Shown piece after piece: positions 1,534 to 10,376 of a stretch of 23,100 bases of DNA (positions are counted from its first letter, which is position 1; every line of letters starts with the position of its first letter). A program made the position numbers and the translations under genes. Source of the DNA: a virus; the IMG/VR virus record IMGVR_UViG_3300024324_000089, positions 1 to 23,100 of that record; one strand, given 5' to 3'. The notes below the pieces were generated by a model. The model saw nothing but the letters and a program-made list of their open reading frames with translations. It was not told the origin of the DNA and searched no databases.

Positions 1534-1568
1534 ATTATATCACGCCTATATATTACTTTAAAAACTAA
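1534..1568 (-). promoter_or_regulatory. Class-2 phage promoter upstream of the nuclease gene
   Basis: Read on the minus strand, TTAGTTTTTAAAG (1568-1556) is followed after exactly 16 bases by TATAAT (1539-1534). The start would fall about 1527, giving a leader of roughly 22 bases before the nuclease ATG. A TG one base upstream of TATAAT makes an extended -10. The 13-bp block abuts the polymerase stop codon. It is one of five identical architectures in the window. Confidence 0.8.
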
Positions 1569-3308
1569 TTAGTGTGTCTCTGCCCAAGAATTACCTACTT
1601 TATATTCGCCTGTGATAGGACAATTCATATTATAATATTCAGTAGTGGCTTCCATACTCTCTACTAATAAATTACCAATAGTATCTGCATCTTCTGGTGC
1701 ACACTCTATCTGAGCCTCATCGTGTATCAATCCTAGTTGATGATACTCTAGTCCCTGCTCTTTAGCCTTATCATTAAAGATTGCCCAAGCCCTCTTAGCT
1801 ACTATTGCACCTGCTGATTGTAATAAGAAGTTAAGTGCTGAGTGCTCACTTCTAATTTCAATATGCCTACCATCTAAGGCCTTAAGATGTCCTCTCTTTG
1901 AGGCTACACGCACTGCTTCTAATAAAGCTTTAAGTGGGGGAATAGACTTAAGGAATTTATCTTTAATACTCCTCCCTTTAGACTTACCACCACCTACAAT
2001 CTTACCTACTAACTCATCACCACCACCATAAATAAAGGCATAGATAAATGTCTTTGCCTCATTCCTAGTATTCAAACCTGCGGCCTTCTGATTAACTACG
2101 TGTATGTCCTCTTCTACTAACTTCTGTGTATACTTATTACTATTCATATAATGTGCTAAGCATCTTAACTCTAGACCACTAAGGTCTGCACCTACTAGTA
2201 CCTTATCTTTATGTACAATAAATAATTCACGCATCTCTTTACCATACTCTTTACCACTGGCTGTTACTTGTTGCATATTAGGGTTGCTACTACTCATACG
2301 GTGTGTTATTGTACCTATTGTGTGTACTCTACCGTGAATACTATTAGTCTTAGGGTTAACATTCTCAATCCAAGAGCGTAACATACTGTCTCTCTTCTGT
2401 AGCATTAAGTATCTTTTAATTAGTTGTGCTTGTGGTATGTCTACACCAGCAAGGACTGATTCATCTACTTTTACTTGACCTTTATCTGTAAATTCAGTTG
2501 GCTTCCATCCATAATGTTGTAGGTATCTAGCTATCTGCTGTCTACTACCTAAGTTAAACTCTGGATAATCCCAATAACCCCACTCAAACTCATCATTAAG
2601 GAATGCACCTTTATCTAGCTGTCCTTGATAAGCTTTAGTAGGGGTCTTAGTTCCTTTTAAGTAATAGTTATCTAAAATATTAAGTTCTTTAAACGTCTTA
2701 AGCGGTCTAAACACTTGTCTAACCTCTTCTTCAACATCTCTAATGTCTTGCTGTATATGTTGTAAAAGCTTAACTGCTTTAACCTCATCAAAATACCATC
2801 CATATCTTTCCTGTTCACTACACATCTCCTTTATTTTATATTCTAATTTAAGAGCTTCTTGCTCTTCCTCTTTTACTTCTAAATGTTCATACACTTTAGT
2901 AGTAATCTCTACATCTCTAACACAATAGCGTAGCATCTCTGGTGTATACTTAGACCAGTCCGAGTAATCGCCCTTCTCAAACCCTAGTCTATCACCCCAA
3001 CTAGCAAGGCTATGGCCACCTTCTCTCCTCGGCTCAATGAATTGACTTAGTAATAAGGTATCTTCTACTTTAATATTACTAAAGTCTGTATCTAATAGAT
3101 TCTCCAATACTGGCTTGTCGTAAGATATAATATTATGCCCAATCAAGGTAGTAACATTCTTATTAGCTAGCCAATCATTAAATCTAGGTATAAAGTGTGG
3201 TGTGAATTTAACAATTTCCTTGTTATCCACATTCTGTAATACAATACACCAAATTACAGTTGGTTCTAGACCATCAGTCTCTATATCTACTACCCACTTA
3301 GAAGTCAT
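1569..3308 (-). CDS. polA: Family A DNA polymerase with 3'-5' proofreading exonuclease (T7 gp5-like)
   Basis: The replicative DNA polymerase has 579 residues from the ATG at 3308, which follows GAGGAG at 5 bases. The exonuclease domain shows D8/E10 (DIETDG), N59/D64 (GHNIISYD) and Y128/D132 (YCVRD). The polymerase domain has motif A D375 (ADLSGLELR), motif B R415-x3-K419-x3-Y423 with Y427-G, and motif C H529-D530-E531. Y423 aligns with F762 of E. coli Pol I; Tyr is also present in T7 gp5. T7 gp5 is about 704 residues. Here the thumb stretch between KTFKEL and FNLGSRQQI is much shorter than the T7 thioredoxin-binding loop, so that processivity loop seems reduced or absent. The start overlaps the end of the primase-helicase gene by 11 bases, so the two are probably coupled. 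Confidence 0.95.
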   Translation of the reverse strand: MTSKWVVDIETDGLEPTVIWCIVLQNVDNKEIVKFTPHFIPRFNDWLANKNVTTLIGHNIISYDKPVLENLLDTDFSNIKVEDTLLLSQFIEPRREGGHSLASWGDRLGFEKGDYSDWSKYTPEMLRYCVRDVEITTKVYEHLEVKEEEQEALKLEYKIKEMCSEQERYGWYFDEVKAVKLLQHIQQDIRDVEEEVRQVFRPLKTFKELNILDNYYLKGTKTPTKAYQGQLDKGAFLNDEFEWGYWDYPEFNLGSRQQIARYLQHYGWKPTEFTDKGQVKVDESVLAGVDIPQAQLIKRYLMLQKRDSMLRSWIENVNPKTNSIHGRVHTIGTITHRMSSSNPNMQQVTASGKEYGKEMRELFIVHKDKVLVGADLSGLELRCLAHYMNSNKYTQKLVEEDIHVVNQKAAGLNTRNEAKTFIYAFIYGGGDELVGKIVGGGKSKGRSIKDKFLKSIPPLKALLEAVRVASKRGHLKALDGRHIEIRSEHSALNFLLQSAGAIVAKRAWAIFNDKAKEQGLEYHQLGLIHDEAQIECAPEDADTIGNLLVESMEATTEYYNMNCPITGEYKVGNSWAETH

Positions 3309-4932
3309 TAGTCTCCTCAACTTTACGCATTGAAGGGTCTTGTCCTTTCTCTAATCTACCAGTGATAGTATCAAAGTGTGCCCATCCACCCTCACCAGTC
3401 TGGCCAGTACGTCTTAACTTAGGCACTCTAATTCTAACTGAATTCCTCTCATACTCATCTTCAGCTAACTTATCCCTACTAAATAGTATATTGTTGTGGC
3501 AAGACTGTGGTATAGCACCACTACCTTTAACATCATACTCACTAATCTTATGTGGGTGGCTACCATCATCCGGCTTACGAGTGTGTGTGCTAATAATAAT
3601 ACAGGCCCTAGTTTCTTTACATAACTTAATAAATCTATCACATACCTCCTCAATATTCTCATTGGATAGGTTCTTAATAGCTGTGTGTAGTGGGTCTACA
3701 ATAATAATACTACATCCTAATCCTTTAACAAAGTATCTAATCTTAGAGAACATCTCGTCTAAATCAATAGAGCCACCACCATCATTATGTAGTTGAATCT
3801 TACTACCAAATCCTAAGTCTTTAGCTAACTCCATAATCTCATCTACCTCTAACTCCTTAGGTGCTAGTAGTGATAGATTCTTATTAGTATGTACACTTAC
3901 TACCTTGCGTACTGTCTCATCAAGACTATCCTCTACCATAAAGCACCCAACCTTCTCCTTAGTTTCAGTAGCAAAGTGATATAGTAATTCATTGATAATA
4001 GTTGTCTTACCGATAGAGGTGTGGGCGATGATAGAAGTTAATTCTCCCCTAGCTAGACCACCTCTAGTCATCTCATTAAGATTACCAAAGCTCTCCGGTA
4101 AAGGTATTAACTCTGTGTGCTTATACTCTAATAGTGCTTGATACATATCATCTAATGTAGCAACACCTGATACTACATAAGGCTTAGCATCCCACCATTC
4201 CTCAACAAACTTCTTACTTGCATTATTGACTAAATAGTCTGAGGCATCCTTATACTCGCTTAGGGATACTATCTTACATTTGTTAGGGCCTAGTATGGGT
4301 GCGATAGACTTCGTTGCTTCTCGGCCATCCTCATCATTATCAAAACAAAGAACCACAGTTTCGTAGGAGTCTAACCACTCCAGATTAGCCTTTATGTTAT
4401 CTAAACACTTAGCACCATTATTAACTGATACTACTGTCCAAGTACCTCCTAACATCTCATAAGTAGCCAATGCATCTAGCTCACCTTCCACTACTGTAAC
4501 ATATCTACCATTAGTTCTAAATAACTGCTGTCCAAATAGCATATTATTGCTTGAGGTGTCTCCACTACCAAAGAACTTCTTATCTTTTACTGTTCTTGTC
4601 TTAAACCCTGATAGATTATTGTCTTTATTAAAGTATGGGTAATGATGTTTAACAATATCACCAGTGTAGTCCTTCTCTACCTTTACTCCATACTTCTTTA
4701 AGGTACTTTCCTTAATGTTTCTATCCTCTAACCTAGAGTAGCTACCAATATAACCTGACTCCCAACCTTCCTTAATTACTTTAGACTCTTTATCCACATT
4801 CTCACTCCCACTAGGTGTAGAATTATTACATACAAAGCAATGAGAACTACCACTCTCATATACTGCGTTACCATCACTACTACCACACTCATCACAATTA
4901 GTATGCTTTACAAACTTATCTTCTTTTGACAT
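3298..4932 (-). CDS. Fused DNA primase-helicase (T7 gp4/Twinkle-like)
   Basis: The 544-residue protein has domains in T7 gp4 order. An N-terminal zinc-binding primase finger has C13-x2-C16 and C32-x2-C35. A TOPRIM RNA polymerase domain shows E149 (VVEGELDA) and D198/D200/D202 (FDNDEDG). A RecA-type DnaB-like helicase covers about 280-530, with P-loop K309-T310 (AHTSIGKT), Walker B D413 (IIIVDP) and H450 (ISTHTRKP). It primes lagging-strand synthesis and unwinds the fork for the adjacent polymerase. The P-loop carries Ala303 where GxxxxGK[ST] expects the first glycine. The ATG at 4932 follows AAGGG at 6 bases. A class-2 promoter lies directly upstream (4964-4998). Confidence 0.94.
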   Translation of the reverse strand: MSKEDKFVKHTNCDECGSSDGNAVYESGSSHCFVCNNSTPSGSENVDKESKVIKEGWESGYIGSYSRLEDRNIKESTLKKYGVKVEKDYTGDIVKHHYPYFNKDNNLSGFKTRTVKDKKFFGSGDTSSNNMLFGQQLFRTNGRYVTVVEGELDALATYEMLGGTWTVVSVNNGAKCLDNIKANLEWLDSYETVVLCFDNDEDGREATKSIAPILGPNKCKIVSLSEYKDASDYLVNNASKKFVEEWWDAKPYVVSGVATLDDMYQALLEYKHTELIPLPESFGNLNEMTRGGLARGELTSIIAHTSIGKTTIINELLYHFATETKEKVGCFMVEDSLDETVRKVVSVHTNKNLSLLAPKELEVDEIMELAKDLGFGSKIQLHNDGGGSIDLDEMFSKIRYFVKGLGCSIIIVDPLHTAIKNLSNENIEEVCDRFIKLCKETRACIIISTHTRKPDDGSHPHKISEYDVKGSGAIPQSCHNNILFSRDKLAEDEYERNSVRIRVPKLRRTGQTGEGGWAHFDTITGRLEKGQDPSMRKVEETNDF

Positions 4933-4963
4933 ATTTAACCCTTACTTTATTTACATTCCCACA

Positions 4964-4998
4964 ATTATAACACACTATTACCTTCCTTTAAAAACTAA
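4964..4998 (-). promoter_or_regulatory. Class-2 phage promoter upstream of primase-helicase
   Basis: On the minus strand TTAGTTTTTAAAG (4998-4986), 16 bases, TATAAT (4969-4964) with TGT before the -10 element. The 13-bp block is embedded in the T-tract of the terminator at 4991-5019, so one T-rich stretch ends SSB transcription and forms the upstream part of the next promoter. The leader to the primase ATG is about 25 bases. Confidence 0.8.
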
Positions 4999-5019
4999 AA
5001 ACCCCCAATTAAGGGGGTT
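4991..5019 (-). terminator. Intrinsic terminator after the SSB gene
   Basis: On the minus strand AACCCCC, loop TTAATT, GGGGGTT, followed by TTTAGTTTT. The stem is 7 bp with five G-C pairs and lies 22 bases past the SSB stop. The TTAATT loop recurs in the hairpins at 7951-7977 and 8714-8731. Confidence 0.88.
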
Positions 5020-5041
5020 AATATTATATTATATTAGCTAG

Positions 5042-5452
5042 TTAGAAATCACCGGCTAGTCTTGAATCACTGGCCTCCGGATTCTTCTCTAGTAGTTTAA
5101 CATCAGTAAAGTAAACACTACGCTCACCGGCCTTACCTTGGTGTGATACCTCGGCTCTAACCTTAACTACATCACCATAGACTGAGAATACTTCGGGGTC
5201 TAGTGGCTCACCTTCAGCATCCCAACTACCAAACACACCATCATTAAACTCCATCTTACGAGTCATTTTGACTTGCTTGTTACCCTCGTACTCACCAATC
5301 CTAGCACCTGCATCCTTGAACTCTTTAACATTGTCCTTATCCACAGTTAAGGTAATGGAATAGTTGCCAGTTTCTGCACCTTTCCATAATGATGATTTAG
5401 TTAATGATACAAAACCACTAACACCCTTTGCAATAACCTTTGTTGTTGCCAT
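5042..5452 (-). CDS. Single-stranded DNA-binding protein (T7 gp2.5-like)
   Basis: The protein has 136 residues. The frame is open further upstream, but the ATG at 5452 follows AGGAGAGG with good spacing and opens with MATTKVIAKGVSGFVSLTK; the upstream frame would overlap the 43-codon gene. The composition is a beta-rich OB-fold type: YSITLTVDKDNVKEFKDAG, then strands around KMTRKMEF, FSVYGDVVKVRAEV and RSVYFTDVKLLE. It ends in LAGDF, with the terminal Phe typical of phage and bacterial SSB tails that recruit polymerase and primase-helicase, although the tail here is only mildly acidic. The place directly ahead of primase-helicase and polymerase supports the call. It is co-transcribed with the 43-codon gene from the 5742-5776 promoter and closed by the terminator at 4991-5019. 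Confidence 0.8.
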   Translation of the reverse strand: MATTKVIAKGVSGFVSLTKSSLWKGAETGNYSITLTVDKDNVKEFKDAGARIGEYEGNKQVKMTRKMEFNDGVFGSWDAEGEPLDPEVFSVYGDVVKVRAEVSHQGKAGERSVYFTDVKLLEKNPEASDSRLAGDF

Positions 5453-5477
5453 ACTTCCTCTCCTTACTTCGTAAAGA

Positions 5478-5609
5478 CTACTTATCTTTACTATTATTAG
5501 TACCACTCTTGGCTGATACCTTACCCTTCTCATTCCCACCAAGGCTTACATCAACACCTTTGGCTAACACTTCTTTATTAGTCTTTATAATCTCATCTAA
5601 ACTTCTCAT
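5478..5609 (-). CDS. Small basic hypothetical protein ahead of SSB
   Basis: The gene has 43 codons, starting MRSLDEIIKTNKEVLAKGVD and ending in a low-complexity polar tail rich in Lys, Ser and Asn. AGGAG lies 6 bases upstream of the ATG at 5609; an ATG 5 bases earlier stops after two codons. No domain is recognised. The N-terminal half can form an amphipathic helix. It is the first gene of the SSB operon, 25 bases upstream of the SSB start, and lies behind the long structured leader. The reality of the gene rests on its good ribosome binding site and its position. Confidence 0.6.
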   Translation of the reverse strand: MRSLDEIIKTNKEVLAKGVDVSLGGNEKGKVSAKSGTNNSKDK

Positions 5610-5634
5610 ACCATACTCCTTTATTATTATATTA

Positions 5635-5730
5635 CTAGGTTATACCTAGATTAACCTTAGTCTACCCTAGTTAACCTTATTCTTACCTTACTTTATACTC
5701 AAGGGAGATAGTCTAAGGTCAGTCTAGGTA
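5635..5730 (-). promoter_or_regulatory. Structured CTAG-rich 5' leader of the SSB operon
   Basis: Downstream of the promoter at 5742-5776 the minus-strand RNA carries the arm TACCTAGACTGACCTTAG (5730-5713) and later CTAAGGTTAATCTAGGTA (5660-5643). They pair over 18 positions with one mismatch and one G-U. After an A-A mismatch the helix continues for about six more pairs toward 5707/5666. A small hairpin CTAGGT-ATA-ACCTAG (5649-5635) uses the same bases as the 3' arm end, so the two folds compete. The 15-nt core CTAGACTGACCTTAG recurs in the plus-strand leader at 9653-9667. Function is unknown: attenuation, antitermination, RNase III processing or protein binding are all possible. Confidence 0.6.
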
Positions 5731-5741
5731 GTCTAAGTCTT

Positions 5742-5776
5742 ATTATACACTAGTTTGTACTACCTTTAAAAACTAA
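5742..5776 (-). promoter_or_regulatory. Class-2 phage promoter of the SSB operon
   Basis: On the minus strand TTAGTTTTTAAAG (5776-5764), 16 bases, TATAAT (5747-5742). It lies immediately downstream of the last early gene (stop at 5787) and about 125 bases upstream of the 43-codon gene, leaving room for the structured leader. Confidence 0.8.
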
Positions 5777-5786
5777 TTGTCATTAA

Positions 5787-5978
5787 TTAGGCTATATACC
5801 TCTTTAGAGATATATTATCTATTACCTTATGGTAGTAATTATCAGCTACTAGTACATCATACCTTGCCCTATCTAAATTATCCTTATCCTCCCTAGATAG
5901 GTACTGGCTTGTCTGTGTATCATAAATTAAGTTACCCATACTTTCTTCCTCTAATATGTAATCAGTTATTCTACTCAT
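5787..5978 (-). CDS. Early hypothetical protein
   Basis: The protein has 63 residues. The ATG at 5978 follows AGGAGG at 5 bases. The sequence MSRITDYILEEESMGNLIYD is followed by a charged helical stretch with YLSREDKDNLDRARYDVLVADNYYHKVIDN. It is soluble and has no cysteines or recognised motif. It overlaps the end of the previous small gene by 8 bases. It is the last gene of the early block; the class-2 promoter for the SSB operon begins 11 bases past its stop. Confidence 0.7.
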   Translation of the reverse strand: MSRITDYILEEESMGNLIYDTQTSQYLSREDKDNLDRARYDVLVADNYYHKVIDNISLKRYIA

Positions 5979-6159
5979 CCTCCCCTCCTAAAGTTATATT
6001 CAATATCTCTTGCCTTTGTAATTTCAAGGCTTTAGTTCTATCAATAATCTCAATAGCCTCATCTCTAACTTTATTAGCTTTAATTTCCTCCTTTTTAATC
6101 TTATTATTAACCCTCTTTAAATCTATTATTAAATTATCTATCCAATCATTTACCATCAT
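5971..6159 (-). CDS. Early coiled-coil hypothetical protein
   Basis: The protein has 62 residues, almost entirely charged and helical (DLKRVNNKIKKEEIKANKV, then KALKLQRQEILN), with heptad-like spacing of Leu/Ile consistent with a coiled coil. GGAGG precedes a double ATG (6159 and 6156); the first overlaps the upstream stop as ATGA, a classic coupled start. No function is recognised. The small basic helical form could act as a partner or inhibitor of a host protein, as many early phage proteins do, but the sequence does not show a target. Confidence 0.68.
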   Translation of the reverse strand: MMVNDWIDNLIIDLKRVNNKIKKEEIKANKVRDEAIEIIDRTKALKLQRQEILNITLGGEDE

Positions 6160-6413
6160 TCATCCTCCACTTTATCTATAATATTAGCACTAGATTCTCT
6201 CCACTGCTCCCTATTTAAATCTCTGTATGCACTTAATTCATTCCTCTGTGTGTATGACATTCTATTACCATCTCTATCTATTGTTATATTCCACTCATCC
6301 CCTCTCTTAATACTAAACCCATCCATATAAGAGGGGTCTAGTGGTATTCCTAATATAATAGTAGTAGGTTTATCTACCCATCTATATGCTTGTGGTATCC
6401 TTGACTTCTTCAT
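6156..6413 (-). CDS. Early hypothetical protein
   Basis: The protein has 85 residues and starts MKKSRIPQAYRWVDKPTTII. GGAGG lies 6 bases upstream of the ATG at 6413. The N-terminal half (TTIILGIPLDPSYMDGFSIKRGDEW) looks beta-rich; the C-terminal half is polar and helical (TQRNELSAYRDLNREQWRES). No membrane segment, cysteines or known motif are visible. It overlaps the end of the upstream 37-codon membrane gene by 32 bases in another frame, and the next gene by 4 bases. Confidence 0.7.
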   Translation of the reverse strand: MKKSRIPQAYRWVDKPTTIILGIPLDPSYMDGFSIKRGDEWNITIDRDGNRMSYTQRNELSAYRDLNREQWRESSANIIDKVEDE

Positions 6414-6495
6414 CCTCTCCCTCCAACATATAAGCTAATAAACCAAACCATCCTAATATAGCTAATCCCATTAATACCTCAATTATATCCACCAT
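6382..6495 (-). CDS. Early single-pass membrane micro-protein
   Basis: The gene has 37 codons: MVDIIEVLMGLAILGWFGLL followed by AYMLEGEDEEVKDTTSI. Residues 4-22 are a clear hydrophobic helix followed by an acidic tail. GAGGAGG lies 7 bases upstream of the ATG at 6495, one of the better ribosome binding sites in the block. Its last 32 bases overlap the start of the following gene in a different frame. Function is unknown; it is one of three N-terminally anchored micro-proteins in the left arm. Confidence 0.62.
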   Translation of the reverse strand: MVDIIEVLMGLAILGWFGLLAYMLEGEDEEVKDTTSI

Positions 6496-6655
6496 TCTTC
6501 AACCTCCTCTGTTTATCTAATAAATCCTTCATTAAGGCCATTCCTTCCTTAATATCTGATAAATATACCTTATCAGTGTCCGGAGGATTCGATTCTGGCG
6601 TACTTCTGTCCTCACCCTTAGCCTTGCCCTTAGTTAAATGTGCCATATTACTCAT
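6479..6655 (-). CDS. Early hydrophilic hypothetical protein
   Basis: The gene has 58 codons. The N-terminal half is low-complexity, basic and proline-containing (MSNMAHLTKGKAKGEDRSTP, then ESNPPDTDKV), and the C-terminal half is an amphipathic helix (YLSDIKEGMALMKDLLDKQR). AAGGAGG lies 4 bases upstream of the ATG at 6655. The start overlaps the previous stop as ATGA; the end overlaps the next ATG by 17 bases. No motif is recognised. Confidence 0.65.
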   Translation of the reverse strand: MSNMAHLTKGKAKGEDRSTPESNPPDTDKVYLSDIKEGMALMKDLLDKQRRLKNGGYN

Positions 6656-6753
6656 ACTTCCTCCTTGTTAATTACTCTCTCGTTATAGTCAATGGCTTGT
6701 ACTAATTTCCAAGCAACGTACCCGATAAAAATTGCTATTAATAATTGTTCCAT
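6652..6753 (-). CDS. Early single-pass membrane micro-protein
   Basis: The gene has 33 codons: MEQLLIAIFIGYVAWKLVQA, then IDYNERVINKEEV. A hydrophobic helix spans residues 3-18, followed by a short charged tail. GGAG lies 7 bases upstream of the ATG at 6753, and it ends in a 4-base ATGA overlap with the next gene. The size and form resemble the 37-codon membrane gene nearby. Function is unknown. Confidence 0.6.
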   Translation of the reverse strand: MEQLLIAIFIGYVAWKLVQAIDYNERVINKEEV

Positions 6754-6754
6754 C

Positions 6755-6979
6755 TTATTTCTCCTTTATTTTCTTTAATTCATACCAAAATGCACTAGCA
6801 GTATCTTCTATATGCGCATAGACAGTAGCCCAATACCAATCTTGGTATGCTTCTGATACGTTATCTTCAATGAATGTCCTAAGTGTAGAATCATCCCACT
6901 CAGTAGCATCTTTTGGCAACGCCTCAGTTAAAAAGCATTCACTTGCTATTTCAAAGTAATCACTATAATTTGTTTTCAT
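6755..6979 (-). CDS. Early acidic aromatic-rich hypothetical protein
   Basis: The protein has 74 residues, begins MKTNYSDYFEIASECFLTEA and is rich in acidic and aromatic residues (AYQDWYWATVYAHIEDTASAFWYELKK). The ATG at 6979 follows AGGAG at 8-9 bases. It is soluble by composition, with no cysteine cluster. It sits head to tail with its neighbours (2 bases to the next stop, 1 base to the following start). The acidic composition resembles DNA-mimic or host-factor-binding early proteins, but nothing in the sequence identifies a target. Confidence 0.7.
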   Translation of the reverse strand: MKTNYSDYFEIASECFLTEALPKDATEWDDSTLRTFIEDNVSEAYQDWYWATVYAHIEDTASAFWYELKKIKEK

Positions 6980-6981
6980 TT

Positions 6982-7122
6982 TTATTTCTCCTTTAGTTCT
7001 ATCCTTGTATCCTCATACCCATCAAGTATCCAATCATCAGCCACCTCTTGTGCTTCGTTTAATGATTCATACTCTCCTATTACTGAGCCACCTACCCACA
7101 CTATATAGTTATATTCATTCAT
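6982..7122 (-). CDS. Early small protein with a beta-alpha fold
   Basis: The gene has 46 codons: MNEYNYIVWVGGSVIGEYES, then a helix NEAQEVADDWILDGYEDT and a strand RIELKEK. This beta-beta-alpha-beta plan (YIVWVGG ... EYESLNEAQEVADDWIxDGYxDTxIE) is typical of small uncharacterised phage proteins that I recall from many podoviruses. The preferred ATG at 7122 has GGAG 7-8 bases upstream (a second ATG follows 4 bases later, out of frame). It overlaps the previous gene by 8 bases. Confidence 0.66.
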   Translation of the reverse strand: MNEYNYIVWVGGSVIGEYESLNEAQEVADDWILDGYEDTRIELKEK

Positions 7123-7384
7123 CTTTATTCTCCATTACTGTGTAGTTTGCAATTTTACGTAACCTAAACTTAAGGTCTTTAATCTCAGCTTTTAGTTCCT
7201 CAGCGTCCTCTAACCTGTCACTCACTGAACCGTGCCAACCTTGTGCTATGTTATCTATCTCACATTGTGAGTATCCGTGGTACTCTAGGTAGTTAGCAAA
7301 TGAAGCGTTCTCCTCTGCTAAGAAATCCCTCTGTACCTCTAAGTCCTCGACTAATGTCGCTAGTTTTGTGTGTTGCTTATTCAT
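7115..7384 (-). CDS. Early coiled-coil protein with a GYS motif
   Basis: The protein has 89 residues, mostly helical and charged: KLATLVEDLEVQRDFLAEEN, then YLEYHGYSQCEIDNIAQGW, then EELKAEIKDLKFRLRKI. Its first half resembles the first half of the neighbouring 95-residue protein (coil, RD-aromatic, LA, GYS, then a D/E-L/I-x2-I helix), which suggests an old duplication. The ATG at 7384 follows AGGAG at 8 bases. A small GAGGG-ATTA-CCCTC hairpin stands just upstream of that site. Function unknown. Confidence 0.72.
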   Translation of the reverse strand: MNKQHTKLATLVEDLEVQRDFLAEENASFANYLEYHGYSQCEIDNIAQGWHGSVSDRLEDAEELKAEIKDLKFRLRKIANYTVMENKDE

Positions 7385-7401
7385 TTTATTTCTCCTGTGT
7401 C

Positions 7402-7415
7402 GAGGGTAATCCCTC
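7402..7415 (-). other. Intercistronic hairpin before a ribosome binding site
   Basis: GAGGG-ATTA-CCCTC on the minus strand, 5 bp with a 4-base loop, ending 5 bases before the AGGAG of the next gene. It has no T-tract, so it is not a terminator. It may protect or modulate translation of the downstream gene, or be chance. Confidence 0.3.
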
Positions 7416-7420
7416 TATTA

Positions 7421-7708
7421 TTAAAATCCAATACTTCTTAGGTCATCATTCATTTGCTCGGGGGTGAGTTCATCATCTTCCCACTCTTGCACCCCACAAT
7501 GCTCTTTACAGTCACTACATATGTCTGTATAGATTATATCAGCACCACAGCAATCTGATAATGGTTCTACACCTACATACTCATCATATATAGTGGCCAA
7601 ATCCTCATCAGAATACCCATTCTTAGTTAACTCATCGGCCAAAGCACTCCTCCAATCTCTTAACTCTGATACTTCATCTTCTAGCTTCCTTTCTCTTGGT
7701 GTCTTCAT
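7421..7708 (-). CDS. Early protein with coiled coil and zinc-ribbon-like cysteines
   Basis: The protein has 95 residues. Residues 6-30 are a charged coiled coil (KLEDEVSELRDWRSALADEL), followed by NGYSDEDLATIYDEYVGVEP. Residues 53-71 carry C53-C54-G-A ... C64-x2-C67-x3-C71, a compact motif likely to bind one zinc ion. This CCGA ... CxxCxxHC/KEHC pattern recurs in small proteins of many phages, by recall, without assigned function. The ATG at 7708 follows AAGGAG at 9 bases and overlaps the previous stop as TAATG. The C-terminal tail is acidic. Confidence 0.74.
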   Translation of the reverse strand: MKTPRERKLEDEVSELRDWRSALADELTKNGYSDEDLATIYDEYVGVEPLSDCCGADIIYTDICSDCKEHCGVQEWEDDELTPEQMNDDLRSIGF

Positions 7709-7881
7709 TAGTATAACTCCTTATTATTAATTAACTTACCCACTACAATAATAATTACTGCTTCTGCATTACTTAGGCCATAGGCTTGAGCAATACTTGA
7801 TACACTTAAATAGTTATTGACATAATCTAAATAGAATACCTCAATATCTCTTAGTGCATTTCTTAGCTTATCCTTATCCAT
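7708..7881 (-). CDS. Early small helix-turn-helix-like protein
   Basis: The gene has 57 codons: MDKDKLRNALRDIEVFYLDY, then VNNYLSVSSIAQAYGLSNAE, then a helix ending INNKELY. The pattern F-x-LDYxNNYLxVxxIAxxYGLSxxEAxxII is one I recall in small phage proteins and reads as a compact helix-turn-helix (SIAQAYGLSNAEAVIII). It is the first gene of the operon started by the sigma70-like promoter at 7913-7941. AAGG lies about 9 bases ahead of the ATG at 7881. A DNA-binding or regulatory role is plausible but unproven. Confidence 0.66.
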   Translation of the reverse strand: MDKDKLRNALRDIEVFYLDYVNNYLSVSSIAQAYGLSNAEAVIIIVVGKLINNKELY

Positions 7882-7912
7882 TTCTTATCCTTATCTTTAT
7901 TTACTTATGCAC

Positions 7913-7941
7913 ATCTTAACATACTTTTAACTGATTGTCAA
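7913..7941 (-). promoter_or_regulatory. Sigma70-like early promoter
   Basis: On the minus strand TTGACA (7941-7936), 17-base spacer, TAAGAT (7918-7913). It sits 10 bases past the terminator at 7951-7977 and about 30 bases upstream of the 57-codon gene. The -35 is a perfect consensus; the -10 matches 4 of 6. It differs from the class-2 promoters. Confidence 0.72.
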
Positions 7942-7950
7942 GTGTTTATA

Positions 7951-7977
7951 CAATAAAAAGCACCAATTAAGGTGCTT
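7951..7977 (-). terminator. Intrinsic terminator between early operons
   Basis: On the minus strand AGCACC, loop TTAATT, GGTGCT, followed by TTTTATTG. It lies 20 bases past the stop of the 64-codon gene. The stem is 6 bp, plus a flanking A-T pair, with the same TTAATT loop as the SSB terminator. Confidence 0.82.
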
Positions 7978-7996
7978 AGTTATATTATTGGCTTAG

Positions 7997-8191
7997 TTAA
8001 ACTACAATCTCACTACTAAAATCAACTAGGCCATTATCAAAGCTATAATCCTCATTAAATAGTGCTTGTGGCTGGATATCGATTGTATCTCCGGCCTCCC
8101 TATCTAAATTGAACCAAGCCTCATTCTCATTAATTGTGGATAATTTAACATTACCCTCCTTTGTGTATATTGTGTATTGTCTATTACTCAT
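7997..8191 (-). CDS. Early hypothetical protein
   Basis: The protein has 64 residues, acidic and apparently beta-rich: MSNRQYTIYTKEGNVKLSTI, then ENEAWFNLDREAGDTIDIQP. AAGGAG lies 9-10 bases upstream of the ATG at 8191. It overlaps the preceding gene by 8 bases and is the last gene before the terminator at 7951-7977. No motif is recognised. Confidence 0.7.
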   Translation of the reverse strand: MSNRQYTIYTKEGNVKLSTINENEAWFNLDREAGDTIDIQPQALFNEDYSFDNGLVDFSSEIVV

Positions 8192-8369
8192 CTGTTATCA
8201 CTCCTTCGTTTATTAAATGTTTAGCTGTTCTACCAAACCATCCTTGTAATTGCCAAGCTAGGCCACTATTAACTAGCTCCTGCCAAGCTTGTATTACTTC
8301 TTCTTCGGTATCAACTTCAATCCATCCTTCAGCTATACCAACTGCATCTGCTTTATTTATATTACTCAT
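8184..8369 (-). CDS. Conserved small phage protein (AWQxLVxxGLAWQLQGWFGRTA type)
   Basis: The protein has 61 residues. It carries EEVIQAWQELVNSG and LAWQLQGWFGRTAKHLINEG, a tryptophan-rich helical motif I recognise from small uncharacterised proteins found in many unrelated phages, where it also appears as a short stand-alone gene or a C-terminal tail. No biochemical role is known to me. The ATG at 8369 overlaps the previous stop as ATGA, and its own stop overlaps the next gene by 8 bases, so these three genes (8653 to 7997) form one coupled string. Confidence 0.78.
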   Translation of the reverse strand: MSNINKADAVGIAEGWIEVDTEEEVIQAWQELVNSGLAWQLQGWFGRTAKHLINEGVITDE

Positions 8370-8653
8370 TGTAATATCTCCTCTTTTAAGTTGTTATTAA
8401 CCTCAATTAGGCCAACATCGACTAGATGTTGTAGCTCTTTAGTTGTTTTATTACCATCAATAAAACCTTTAAGGTGTCTTAAGGTAGTACGGCTATAATC
8501 CCAATCAGCACCAAAGGTAGTTGTTCCACCTTCTACTACTTTACATACAATACTATCGTATGACTGTAAATAGCTAGTTCCTGCTCTCTTTGTAATTACA
8601 AAGTGATGAGCCACCGGATTATCTAGCTCATTTATTAGTTGTGTTATTCTCAT
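8366..8653 (-). CDS. Conserved small early phage protein
   Basis: The protein has 95 residues: MRITQLINELDNPVAHHFVI, then SYLQSYDSIVCKVVEGGTTT, WDYSRTTLRHLKGFIDGNKT and TKELQHLVDVGLIEVNNNL. The S-Y-x-S/T-I-V-x-K plus D/Y-S-x-TT-x-x-H-L-x-x-F pattern followed by a short helix pair is familiar from small proteins of T7-like phages; function unknown. The ATG at 8653 follows GAGG at 8 bases. It is the first gene of a coupled group of three. Confidence 0.74.
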   Translation of the reverse strand: MRITQLINELDNPVAHHFVITKRAGTSYLQSYDSIVCKVVEGGTTTFGADWDYSRTTLRHLKGFIDGNKTTKELQHLVDVGLIEVNNNLKEEILQ

Positions 8654-8713
8654 TTTATTACCTCTTTATTATTAGACCTATCTCATCAGTAGCAAGTGGT
8701 CAATCTTTACTAG

Positions 8714-8731
8714 ACCCTCAATTAAGAGGGT
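8714..8731. terminator. Hairpin between the first two early transcription units (possible terminator)
   Basis: ACCCTC-AATTAA-GAGGGT, a perfect 6-bp stem with the same loop as the two clear terminators. It lies 9 bases past the stop of the first early gene. On the minus strand the following bases (CTAGTAAAG) are not T-rich; on plus they are (TTTCGATTGTTATT). Its orientation and strength are therefore doubtful. A TTGACC lies shortly downstream on minus, but no convincing -10 follows at normal spacing. Confidence 0.45.
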
Positions 8732-8739
8732 TTCGATTG

Positions 8740-8934
8740 TTATTGTGGAACAGTATTAAATATCTTAACACTATCATCAGTTATCTCAACCTTGACACAA
8801 CTAGTATCAACACTCTCATACCTATAAGTATAACCTTCTGATATGCCTAGTGGTAGCAAGAAAATAACCCCGTCTACTGCATCTGTTCCAATATATGGAT
8901 TGCCTTTGTATTCATTATAGTATTGTGTCTTCAT
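8740..8934 (-). CDS. First early gene, hypothetical protein
   Basis: The protein has 64 residues. A GTG lies in frame upstream, but the ATG at 8934 (MKTQYYNEYKGNPYIGTDAV) follows AAAGGAG at 8-9 bases and is preferred. The protein looks beta-rich (DGVIFLLPLGISEGYTYRYE, then VKVEITDDSVKIFNTV) and soluble, with no known motif. It is transcribed alone from the strong early promoter at 8969-8996, with a leader of about 28 bases. It is therefore probably the first protein made from the left arm, a position where phages often place host-takeover factors. That role is inference from position only. Confidence 0.72.
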   Translation of the reverse strand: MKTQYYNEYKGNPYIGTDAVDGVIFLLPLGISEGYTYRYESVDTSCVKVEITDDSVKIFNTVPQ

Positions 8935-8968
8935 TGGTATTGCTCCTTTTATTAATTGATTCACTTAT

Positions 8969-8996
8969 AGTATAACATAACATTAAAAGGTGTCAA
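8969..8996 (-). promoter_or_regulatory. Strong sigma70-like early promoter of the left arm
   Basis: On the minus strand TTGACA (8996-8991), 16-base spacer, TATACT (8974-8969). A perfect -35 and a 5 of 6 -10 make it the best host-type promoter in the window. The region upstream (ATTTAATTGAATTAA) is AT-rich like an UP element. Confidence 0.82.
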
Positions 8997-9051
8997 GTAT
9001 TAATTCAATTAAATATAGATAGGCTTGCTTGCTACCATCACATTAGCAAAA

Positions 9052-9256
9052 GGTGATATGCCTTAATAGATAGGGTTGTAGAGTATGTGTATGGATTATT
9101 AGACATATTGTTGTATTTATAATACACACTAGTTATTAAAACGGTGATGGCCTTTAGTATTAAAGAGAATAATTAATAATGATATATAAATACCCCCTTC
9201 GACCCACTAAAGATAAAACAATTAATCACATATTAATGCACGGTGATACCTTAGAA
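9052..9256 (+). repeat. Three dispersed GGTGAT...CCTTA repeats
   Basis: The copies start at 9052 (GGTGATATGCCTTAATA), 9143 (GGTGATGGCCTTTAGTA) and 9242 (GGTGATACCTTAGAAT), spaced 91 and 99 bases. The two halves GGTGAT and CCTTA/CCTTTA are kept, with 0-3 bases between. They could be iterons or operators. Confidence 0.45.
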
Positions 9257-9395
9257 TACCCCTTCCCCTTACAAGGTTATTAATAAGATAGTATATAAGG
9301 AATTACTGATATAGAAGACCCCTCCACACCCTTTGTGAGAACTTAGCCACCCACGGAATCCCACCTCTATATAAAATTCAAGTAATTCCATATTA

Positions 9396-9465
9396 TGTTT
9401 CACGGATTGTTTCACGGGCTCTAGTCATTACTAGTTAATGAGAAGGGTTATCATTTGGGCTCTAG
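9396..9465 (+). repeat. Tandem TGTTTCACGG and paired GGGCTCTAG repeats
   Basis: TGTTTCACGG occurs at 9396-9405 and 9408-9417 (12-base period, one helical turn). GGGCTCTAG occurs at 9416-9424 and 9457-9465, flanking a small CATTA-CTAGT-TAATG hairpin. All lie just upstream of the first late promoter, where an activator would be expected to bind. Confidence 0.5.
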
Positions 9466-9496
9466 ACATATTATATTATTTTACTATATTTATCAA

Positions 9497-9531
9497 TTAG
9501 TTTTTAAAGTTAGGTATTTATAGGGTATAAT
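9497..9531 (+). promoter_or_regulatory. Class-2 phage promoter P-late-1
   Basis: TTAGTTTTTAAAG (9497-9509), 16 bases ending in TAGGG, TATAAT (9526-9531). It drives rightward transcription through the structured leader 9538-9756 toward the second promoter and terS. Confidence 0.82.
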
Positions 9532-9620
9532 CAATAGTATGTTTATACTAAACAGGTACATACCCAGGTTCAACCTCTCTACTACTACTTAGGTAAAGAG
9601 CTGGTAGATACCCTGGTATA

Positions 9621-9658
9621 GTCTAGACATACCTAGATTAGACTAGGTTAGTCTAGAC
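9621..9658 (+). other. 38-base composite palindrome (leader hairpin A)
   Basis: GTCTAGAC, AT, ACCTAG, loop ATTAGA, CTAGGT, TA, GTCTAGAC. The outer 8-bp and inner 6-bp stems are perfect, separated by a symmetric 2x2 internal loop; an A-T pair extends the base. As DNA it is also a strong dyad that could bind a dimeric protein. Confidence 0.72.
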
Positions 9659-9704
9659 TGACCTTAGGTATACTAACTAGTATAATAACTAAGGTTAGAC
9701 TAGA
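9652..9704 (+). other. Leader hairpin B, sharing an arm with hairpin A
   Basis: TCTAGACTGACCTTAG (9652-9667) pairs with CTAAGGTTAGACTAGA (9689-9704) over 16 positions, with one A-A mismatch and one G-U. Inside lies a second stem TATACTA/TAGTATA (9669-9675 with 9678-9684). Bases 9652-9658 are also the 3' arm of hairpin A, so only one of the two can form in a given RNA. Confidence 0.68.
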
Positions 9705-9756
9705 ATGACTAGGTATAGGGTATTGGTTGTAGTGTAGGTGTAGTAACCTTATTAAT

Positions 9757-9791
9757 TTAGTTTTTAAAGTTATAGTTAACTAGGGTATAAT
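9757..9791 (+). promoter_or_regulatory. Class-2 phage promoter P-late-2 for terS
   Basis: TTAGTTTTTAAAG (9757-9769), 16 bases ending in TAGGG, TATAAT (9786-9791). The start would be near 9798, leaving a leader of roughly 27 bases made almost only of A and T, with no Shine-Dalgarno sequence before the terS ATG. Confidence 0.82.
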
Positions 9792-9824
9792 ATTATTTAT
9801 GTATATATTATTTTATAATAAATT

Positions 9825-10376
9825 ATGAAGACTGGTCAAGAAGTTAAGGCTCAAGATAAGAAAGACTTAGAGGAGCTTAAGAATAAAGCTAAGTATGCTG
9901 TGGCTGCTGAGACAGGTAAACTACCTAGTGATGTAGTTATTAAGGTAGAAAAGAAGAGAGGTAGGCCTAAGTCTGAATATAGAACTGCTGGTGGTAAGAA
10001 GACTAGAGGTGCTCACGGTAAGAAGTATACCCCTACTGATGATGATTATGGTAAGGTAGAGGAAATGGTCACAATAGGATTGGACCAACACACTATTGCT
10101 AAGATAATGGGTTGTTCTAATGCTACATTATCTAAATACTATAAGACCACTATGGAAGTAGCTAGAGAGAAGAGAACTGCTAGTGTAGCAGGTGTGGCTT
10201 ATAAGATGGCTATGAGTGGTGAGTCAGCTAGTATGACTACATTCTGGCTTAAGACACAAGGTGGTTGGACACCTAAGCAACACGTTATACACGAAGATAG
10301 GAACTTTGATATTAGCTGGTCTGAGGATGAAGATGATATTGCAGATGCTAATAGACGTGAGGATAATGTCCACTAA
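9825..10376 (+). CDS. terS: Terminase small subunit
   Basis: The protein has 183 residues. A helix-turn-helix (about 78-107: VEEMVTIGLDQHTIAKIMGC then SNATLSKYYKTTM) recognises the packaging site. It is followed by a helical oligomerisation segment AREKRTASVAGVAYKMAMSG and TTFWLKTQGGW, a form common in small terminases. An AT-hook-like KRGRPK lies at 44-49 in a basic linker, and the C-terminus is acidic. It lies directly ahead of the large terminase, overlapping it by one base (TAATG). No Shine-Dalgarno motif is visible before the ATG at 9825. A nine-codon AT-rich reading frame from 9799 ends on the overlapping TGA of ATGA, so initiation may depend on re-initiation or on an unstructured A/T leader. 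Confidence 0.85.
   Translation: MKTGQEVKAQDKKDLEELKNKAKYAVAAETGKLPSDVVIKVEKKRGRPKSEYRTAGGKKTRGAHGKKYTPTDDDYGKVEEMVTIGLDQHTIAKIMGCSNATLSKYYKTTMEVAREKRTASVAGVAYKMAMSGESASMTTFWLKTQGGWTPKQHVIHEDRNFDISWSEDEDDIADANRREDNVH

Follow-up and report, generated by a model that had tools for sequence, protein, structure and literature searches.

The window analysed here is the whole 23.1-kb fragment of an uncultured, marine-type virus with a bacterial host. Its early and replication genes run leftward, and a terminase-portal-capsid block runs rightward. The terminase large subunit shares 52-54% identity with those of HTVC010P-type pelagiphages, the portal protein 37-39% with those of Pseudomonas and other podophages, and the DNA polymerase about 40% with those of pelagiphages and roseophages. 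The promoters, leader elements and early open reading frames (ORFs) considered below are listed in Table 1. An Rfam search of the window gave no match.

Table 1. Promoters, leader elements and early ORFs of the window; leader lengths are estimates
Feature	Position	Strand	Context	Leader
Tagged promoter 1	1534..1568	-	Upstream of Cas4-type exonuclease gene (638-1504)	~23 nt
Tagged promoter 2	4964..4998	-	Upstream of primase/helicase gene (3298-4932)	~25 nt
Tagged promoter 3	5742..5776	-	Upstream of 43-aa ORF (5478-5609) and ssb (5042-5452)	126 nt to 43-aa ORF, 283 nt to ssb
Tagged promoter 4	9497..9531	+	P1 of tandem late pair	~287 nt to terS
Tagged promoter 5	9757..9791	+	P2 of tandem late pair, upstream of terS (9825-10376)	~27 nt to terS
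Early promoter, TTGACA-N17-TAAGAT with TGn	7913..7941	-	Upstream of helix-turn-helix (HTH) ORF	
Early promoter, TTGACA-N16-TATACT with TGn	8969..8996	-	Upstream of first early operon	
57-aa early ORF	7708..7881	-	Predicted three-helix HTH protein; candidate tag reader	
85-aa early ORF	6156..6413	-	Homologues in relatives have an N-terminal HTH-like stretch missing here	
Imperfect dyad, 25-nt arms	9647..9709	+	Between tandem late promoters	
Imperfect dyad, 22-nt arms	5643..5730	-	ssb-operon leader	

The pattern TTAGTTTTTAAAG-N16-TATAAT occurred exactly five times in the window, on both strands and with no mismatch. All five copies were exact at the coordinates and on the strands given by an earlier reading made without database searches (the sequence-only reading), and the 13 bases of the upstream block, hereafter the tag, were invariant as that reading had claimed. 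Copies with 1-3 mismatches to the full pattern were absent from the window (0.10 expected), and a relaxed scan for block, gap and -10 element found nothing better than 4 mismatches beyond the five, with no intermediates; the tagged class is therefore all or none in the window. The same 13-mer at one offset was common to 5 of the 36 TATAAT sites in the window; 200 simulated sequences never had one 8-mer at more than 2 TATAAT sites. Mean pairwise identity among the five copies was 1.0 for the block and for the -10 element, 0.41 for the spacer and 0.29 for the 40-bp flanks (0.26-0.28 expected). A promoter cassette duplicated not long ago would have left similar flanks, and this origin was rejected because flanks and spacers are unrelated between copies. 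It is simpler to read the block as kept by selection and not by recent copying.

If TATAAT is numbered -12 to -7, the tag occupies -41 to -29, with its centre at -35. Inside it, TTTAAA occupies the -35 place with a 17-bp spacer to TATAAT, within the 16-18 bp range, and TTTAAA-N17-TATAAT matches the host sigma70 consensus at 10 of 12 positions. In all five copies, TTTAAA lacks the G and the C of TTGACA, and the flanking tag bases, TTAG and the final G, are invariant and lie outside any host element. The TGn extended -10 was found only in the promoters at 1534 and 4964 and is absent from the other three. The tag is asymmetric, without dyad symmetry, and its phase to the -10 element is fixed. The architecture had been described as non-standard; its geometry proved ordinary, with TTTAAA at normal -35 spacing, and what is unusual is the weak -35 together with the invariant bases around it.

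Each copy stands ahead of a gene or operon, as had been proposed, at the distances estimated in Table 1. Promoter 1 starts directly after the DNA polymerase stop codon, promoter 2 (4998) adjoins the T-tract of a terminator-like hairpin (5019-5000), and the tandem promoters 4 and 5 head the terminase/late operon. A second terminator-like hairpin precedes the TTGACA promoter at 7941. Both early promoters (8996 and 7941) keep TTGACA, whereas all five tagged promoters have TTTAAA, which bears out the contrast drawn by the sequence-only reading; its view that the replication and late operons are served by one class, which differs from the early promoters with TTGACA, is supported. The two long leaders, those of the late operon and of ssb, each contain an imperfect dyad and have the exact 15-mer CTAGACTGACCTTAG in common; the dyads and the 15-mer are possibly an origin, a regulator site or an RNA element. 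A comparable long hairpin of changed sequence lies in the ssb leader of relatives (L014, ~9400-9500). In the large intergenic region at 9048-9260 of the window, A(A/C)GGTGAT with CCTTA behind it recurs three times in loose form, an iteron-like arrangement.

We then considered about 150 related loci gathered by terminase, portal and primase searches. The tag was absent from these loci, two contigs of the window's own phage excepted. Single exact tag matches in L001, L002, L005 and L006 were attributed to chance, the reversed pattern giving six single hits; these records hold no second copy, and L001 and L006 carry the same stretch. The region upstream of terS was compared across 41 dereplicated relatives, the window's own phage counted in. 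Most of them have two tandem late promoters 115-260 bp apart at the same site as in the window, with no shared tag. Typically, the -10 of these late promoters is of the extended, host-like kind (TTTTATGGTATAAT), A-rich sequence occupies -42 to -38 and a clear -35 is missing; the profile was selected for GG before TATAAT, and only its other positions count as evidence. Both late promoters of a phage share a block of their own in fixed register in L132 and L133, and less clearly in L029, with 21-23 of 33 matches against a between-genome mean of 11.1 (sd 2.7); the lineage-specific block of L132 is TTCTAAATAAGTTTTT. With L132 and L133, which are related, counted as one lineage, at least two other lineages have a block of this kind at their late promoters. 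A further L132-type block-bearing genome that includes the replication region was looked for and not found, and a DNA polymerase scan for close relatives found none. The ssb promoters of L014 and L016 read TTAG-NN-TTGACA-G-N16-TACAAT, the frame of the tag with a proper -35, which hints, weakly on four shared letters, that the tag may have grown out of an ordinary promoter of this kind.

Other repeats were seen among the relatives. Those before TATATT in L042, L124 and L128 form a dense tandem-like array in the late region and were rejected as promoters. Dispersed short palindromes, one kind per relative, are located in the early and leader intergenic regions of L135, L059, L156 and L053/L159 (AAGACAATGTCTT, CAAGCAATTAAATGCTTG, ACGCATTTAAATGCGT and AGTATATATATACT).

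Strain L102 is 98.0% identical to the window over 4,672 bp. Downstream of 9824, the two differ at 88 positions in 4,030 bp (2.2%), against no substitution in the 497 bp of 9328-9824, which contain both late promoters; the downstream rate predicts about 11 substitutions there. Constraint may explain the unchanged stretch; recent recombination there would be an alternative. Another relative, L104, lacks the tag despite a TerL 99% identical to that of the window, and close kin therefore manage without it. Its primase and DNA polymerase are 67% and 60% identical to those of the window, a picture of mosaic genomes joined near the late promoters.

Of the early genes, the 57-aa ORF comes first behind the second TTGACA promoter (7941). 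A three-helix fold was predicted for it from sequence alone with a pLDDT of 91, and it matched the profile phrog_26669 (1.3e-6), which represents phage families of unassigned function. Its fold matches included HetR, DeoR, sigma region 4, Mu C and Mu Mor; all had Z below 8 and therefore support an HTH fold and nothing finer. No fold match rose above the common HTH background, and there was no sequence match to solved structures. Judging from this predicted fold, we infer that the 57-aa protein is the best visible candidate reader of the tag. Many relatives encode longer homologues of the 85-aa early ORF, about 130-150 aa in length (e.g., L139:4567-5016 and L059:4192-4599). The N-terminal HTH-like stretch of this family, a reading supported by weak profile matches to transcriptional regulators, is absent from the window and L104 and was probably lost there.

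Profiles for sigma region 2 or 4 matched nothing in the window and 17 related records, which are fragments, and the positive controls matched. AsiA and MotA gave no match in the window and 9 relatives (fragments, in which distant homologues would be missed), nor did the Mor family (PF08765) in the window and 9 relatives, again fragments. The phage RNA polymerase profile PF00940 was also without a match, but its positive control was equally silent, so this result is uninformative; the ORF list of the window contains no unexplained large ORF. Of the earlier statement that the window holds no RNA polymerase or sigma gene, the sigma part agrees with the profile searches of these fragments, and the RNA polymerase part leans on the ORF list. 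A factor encoded elsewhere or among the small early genes had also been suggested. An early ORF with a predicted HTH does exist, and the factor could also be encoded beyond the ends of this 23.1-kb fragment.

On balance, we lean towards reading the tagged promoters as middle/late promoters of host RNA polymerase in which a phage-specific site takes over from the -35 contact and is recognised by a DNA-binding protein that the phage makes early. We favour this because the -35 is degenerate in all five copies, invariant bases lie outside the host elements and the early promoters of the same phage differ. What follows on promoter activity, timing, the need for a phage factor and the identity of that factor we infer from sequence. 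The primary sigma factor of host RNA polymerase would recognise TATAAT, and TTTAAA would be too poor for sigma region 4 to hold well. The 13-bp site (-41 to -29) would be bound instead by an early phage protein, which would contact or remodel sigma region 4 or the alpha C-terminal domain, so that the divergent replication and late operons are activated together. The TTGACA promoters would fire first and supply this protein, for which the 57-aa protein is a candidate.

This phage-factor reading is consistent with the fixed-register blocks that L132, L133 and L029 have of their own, the relatives' tandem late promoters without this tag, the three promoters lacking TGn, the unchanged late promoter region in L102 and the predicted HTH of the 57-aa ORF. 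Against it, no known activator family was matched, the HTH fold is common and L104 does without the tag; among the loci compared, the tag is moreover confined to this phage. A bolder version, which we regard as quite unlikely, makes the 57-aa protein a stand-alone substitute for sigma region 4, reading the tag instead of the -35 and docking host polymerase on TATAAT; protein and tag would then have changed together from phage to phage, giving each lineage a private code.

The strongest rival dispenses with a phage factor. Host RNA polymerase alone would read these promoters, the tag would be where proximal UP-like sequence, -35 and spacer reach a local optimum, and its uniformity would come from selection for strength in one host. 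We consider this a serious possibility, albeit an unlikely one. TTTAAA stands at the canonical -35 spacing, and the late promoters of relatives are host-like, with the extended -10 TATGGTATAAT and the A-rich stretch at -42 to -38. The early promoters of T4 are likewise read by the host and are nevertheless long and conserved beyond -35 and -10 (PMC2988021), so a long invariant block need not imply the extra requirement to which the sequence-only reading pointed. Host polymerase alone accounts poorly for a -35 that is degenerate in five of five promoters when the early promoters of the same phage have TTGACA, for the invariance of TTAG and the final G outside the host elements, for the three promoters without TGn and for the lack of intermediate variants.

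Two further explanations assign other roles to a phage protein. The tag could be an operator over the -35 region through which an early phage repressor, removed later, shuts the replication and late promoters. The site does overlap the -35 region in all five copies, and relatives commonly have palindromic, phage-specific repeats between their genes, but the tag has no dyad symmetry, a weak -35 would not need repression and a repressor site would not require exact phase with the -10 element; we find this distinctly improbable. Least credible is a sigma factor encoded by the phage itself, the arrangement in 7-11 and other phiEco32-like phages, although portal homologues (37-39% identity) occur in other podophages without their own RNA polymerase. 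The late promoters of 7-11 offer a precedent in being bipartite with a fixed 16-bp gap (GTAAtg-16-aCTA) and serving several late operons (PMC8948821). Their -10 is, however, not host-like and a sigma gene is present in 7-11, whereas the tagged promoters have exactly the host TATAAT, which is absent from the phage-sigma promoters of phiEco32 and 7-11, and the sigma profiles found nothing in the window and the 17 related records. The phage-sigma plan of phiEco32-like phages does not fit this perfect host -10.

Among known systems, the middle promoters of T4, at which AsiA and MotA appropriate sigma, have a 9-bp MotA box, (a/t)(a/t)TGCTT(t/c)a, whose centre lies at -30 and which tolerates changes (PMC2988021). 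As in that class, the host TATAAT is kept (5/5 here), the host -35 is replaced by a phage-specific box, TGn is present in about half and replication genes would be served after the early phase (PMC2988021). Unlike the MotA box, the tag has 13 invariant bases centred at -35, and TTAGTTTTTAAAG lacks the GCTT core; no MotA or AsiA match was found in the window and 9 relatives, and late operons here also belong to the class. We therefore do not file the tagged class under T4 middle promoters, since the plan is alike but box and position differ and the factor genes were not found. With T4 early promoters, which host sigma70 reads through UP, -35, TGn and -10 elements, the tagged promoters have in common conservation well past -35 and -10 and an A/T-rich upstream region, but those promoters have an excellent -35 and serve early genes; the tagged ones combine a degenerate -35 with replication and late genes. 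Mu Mor and C are HTH activators of sigma70 promoters with a poor -35. The proposed activator site likewise lies beside or over a poor -35, and the 57-aa candidate is predicted to have an HTH fold as they do; the Mor family, however, had no match in the window and 9 relatives, and the candidate is about half the size of Mor and C.

To our knowledge, many abundant marine podophages have no RNA polymerase or sigma gene. For Skadi, a related HTVC010P-type isolate, reports cover only predicted sigma70 promoters and Pribnow boxes (PMC10504331). The tagged promoter class is real, and in plan it is a variant of phage promoters already known. One invariant tag on replication and late promoters provides a handle on gene timing in marine podophages, as it predicts start sites and gene classes and narrows the early proteins of interest to a few. 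The comparison of close relatives indicates quick turnover of the tag, which would be a case of protein-DNA co-evolution. A tag-reading protein, probably an early one of this virus, may switch on the genes for copying DNA and those for building particles together.
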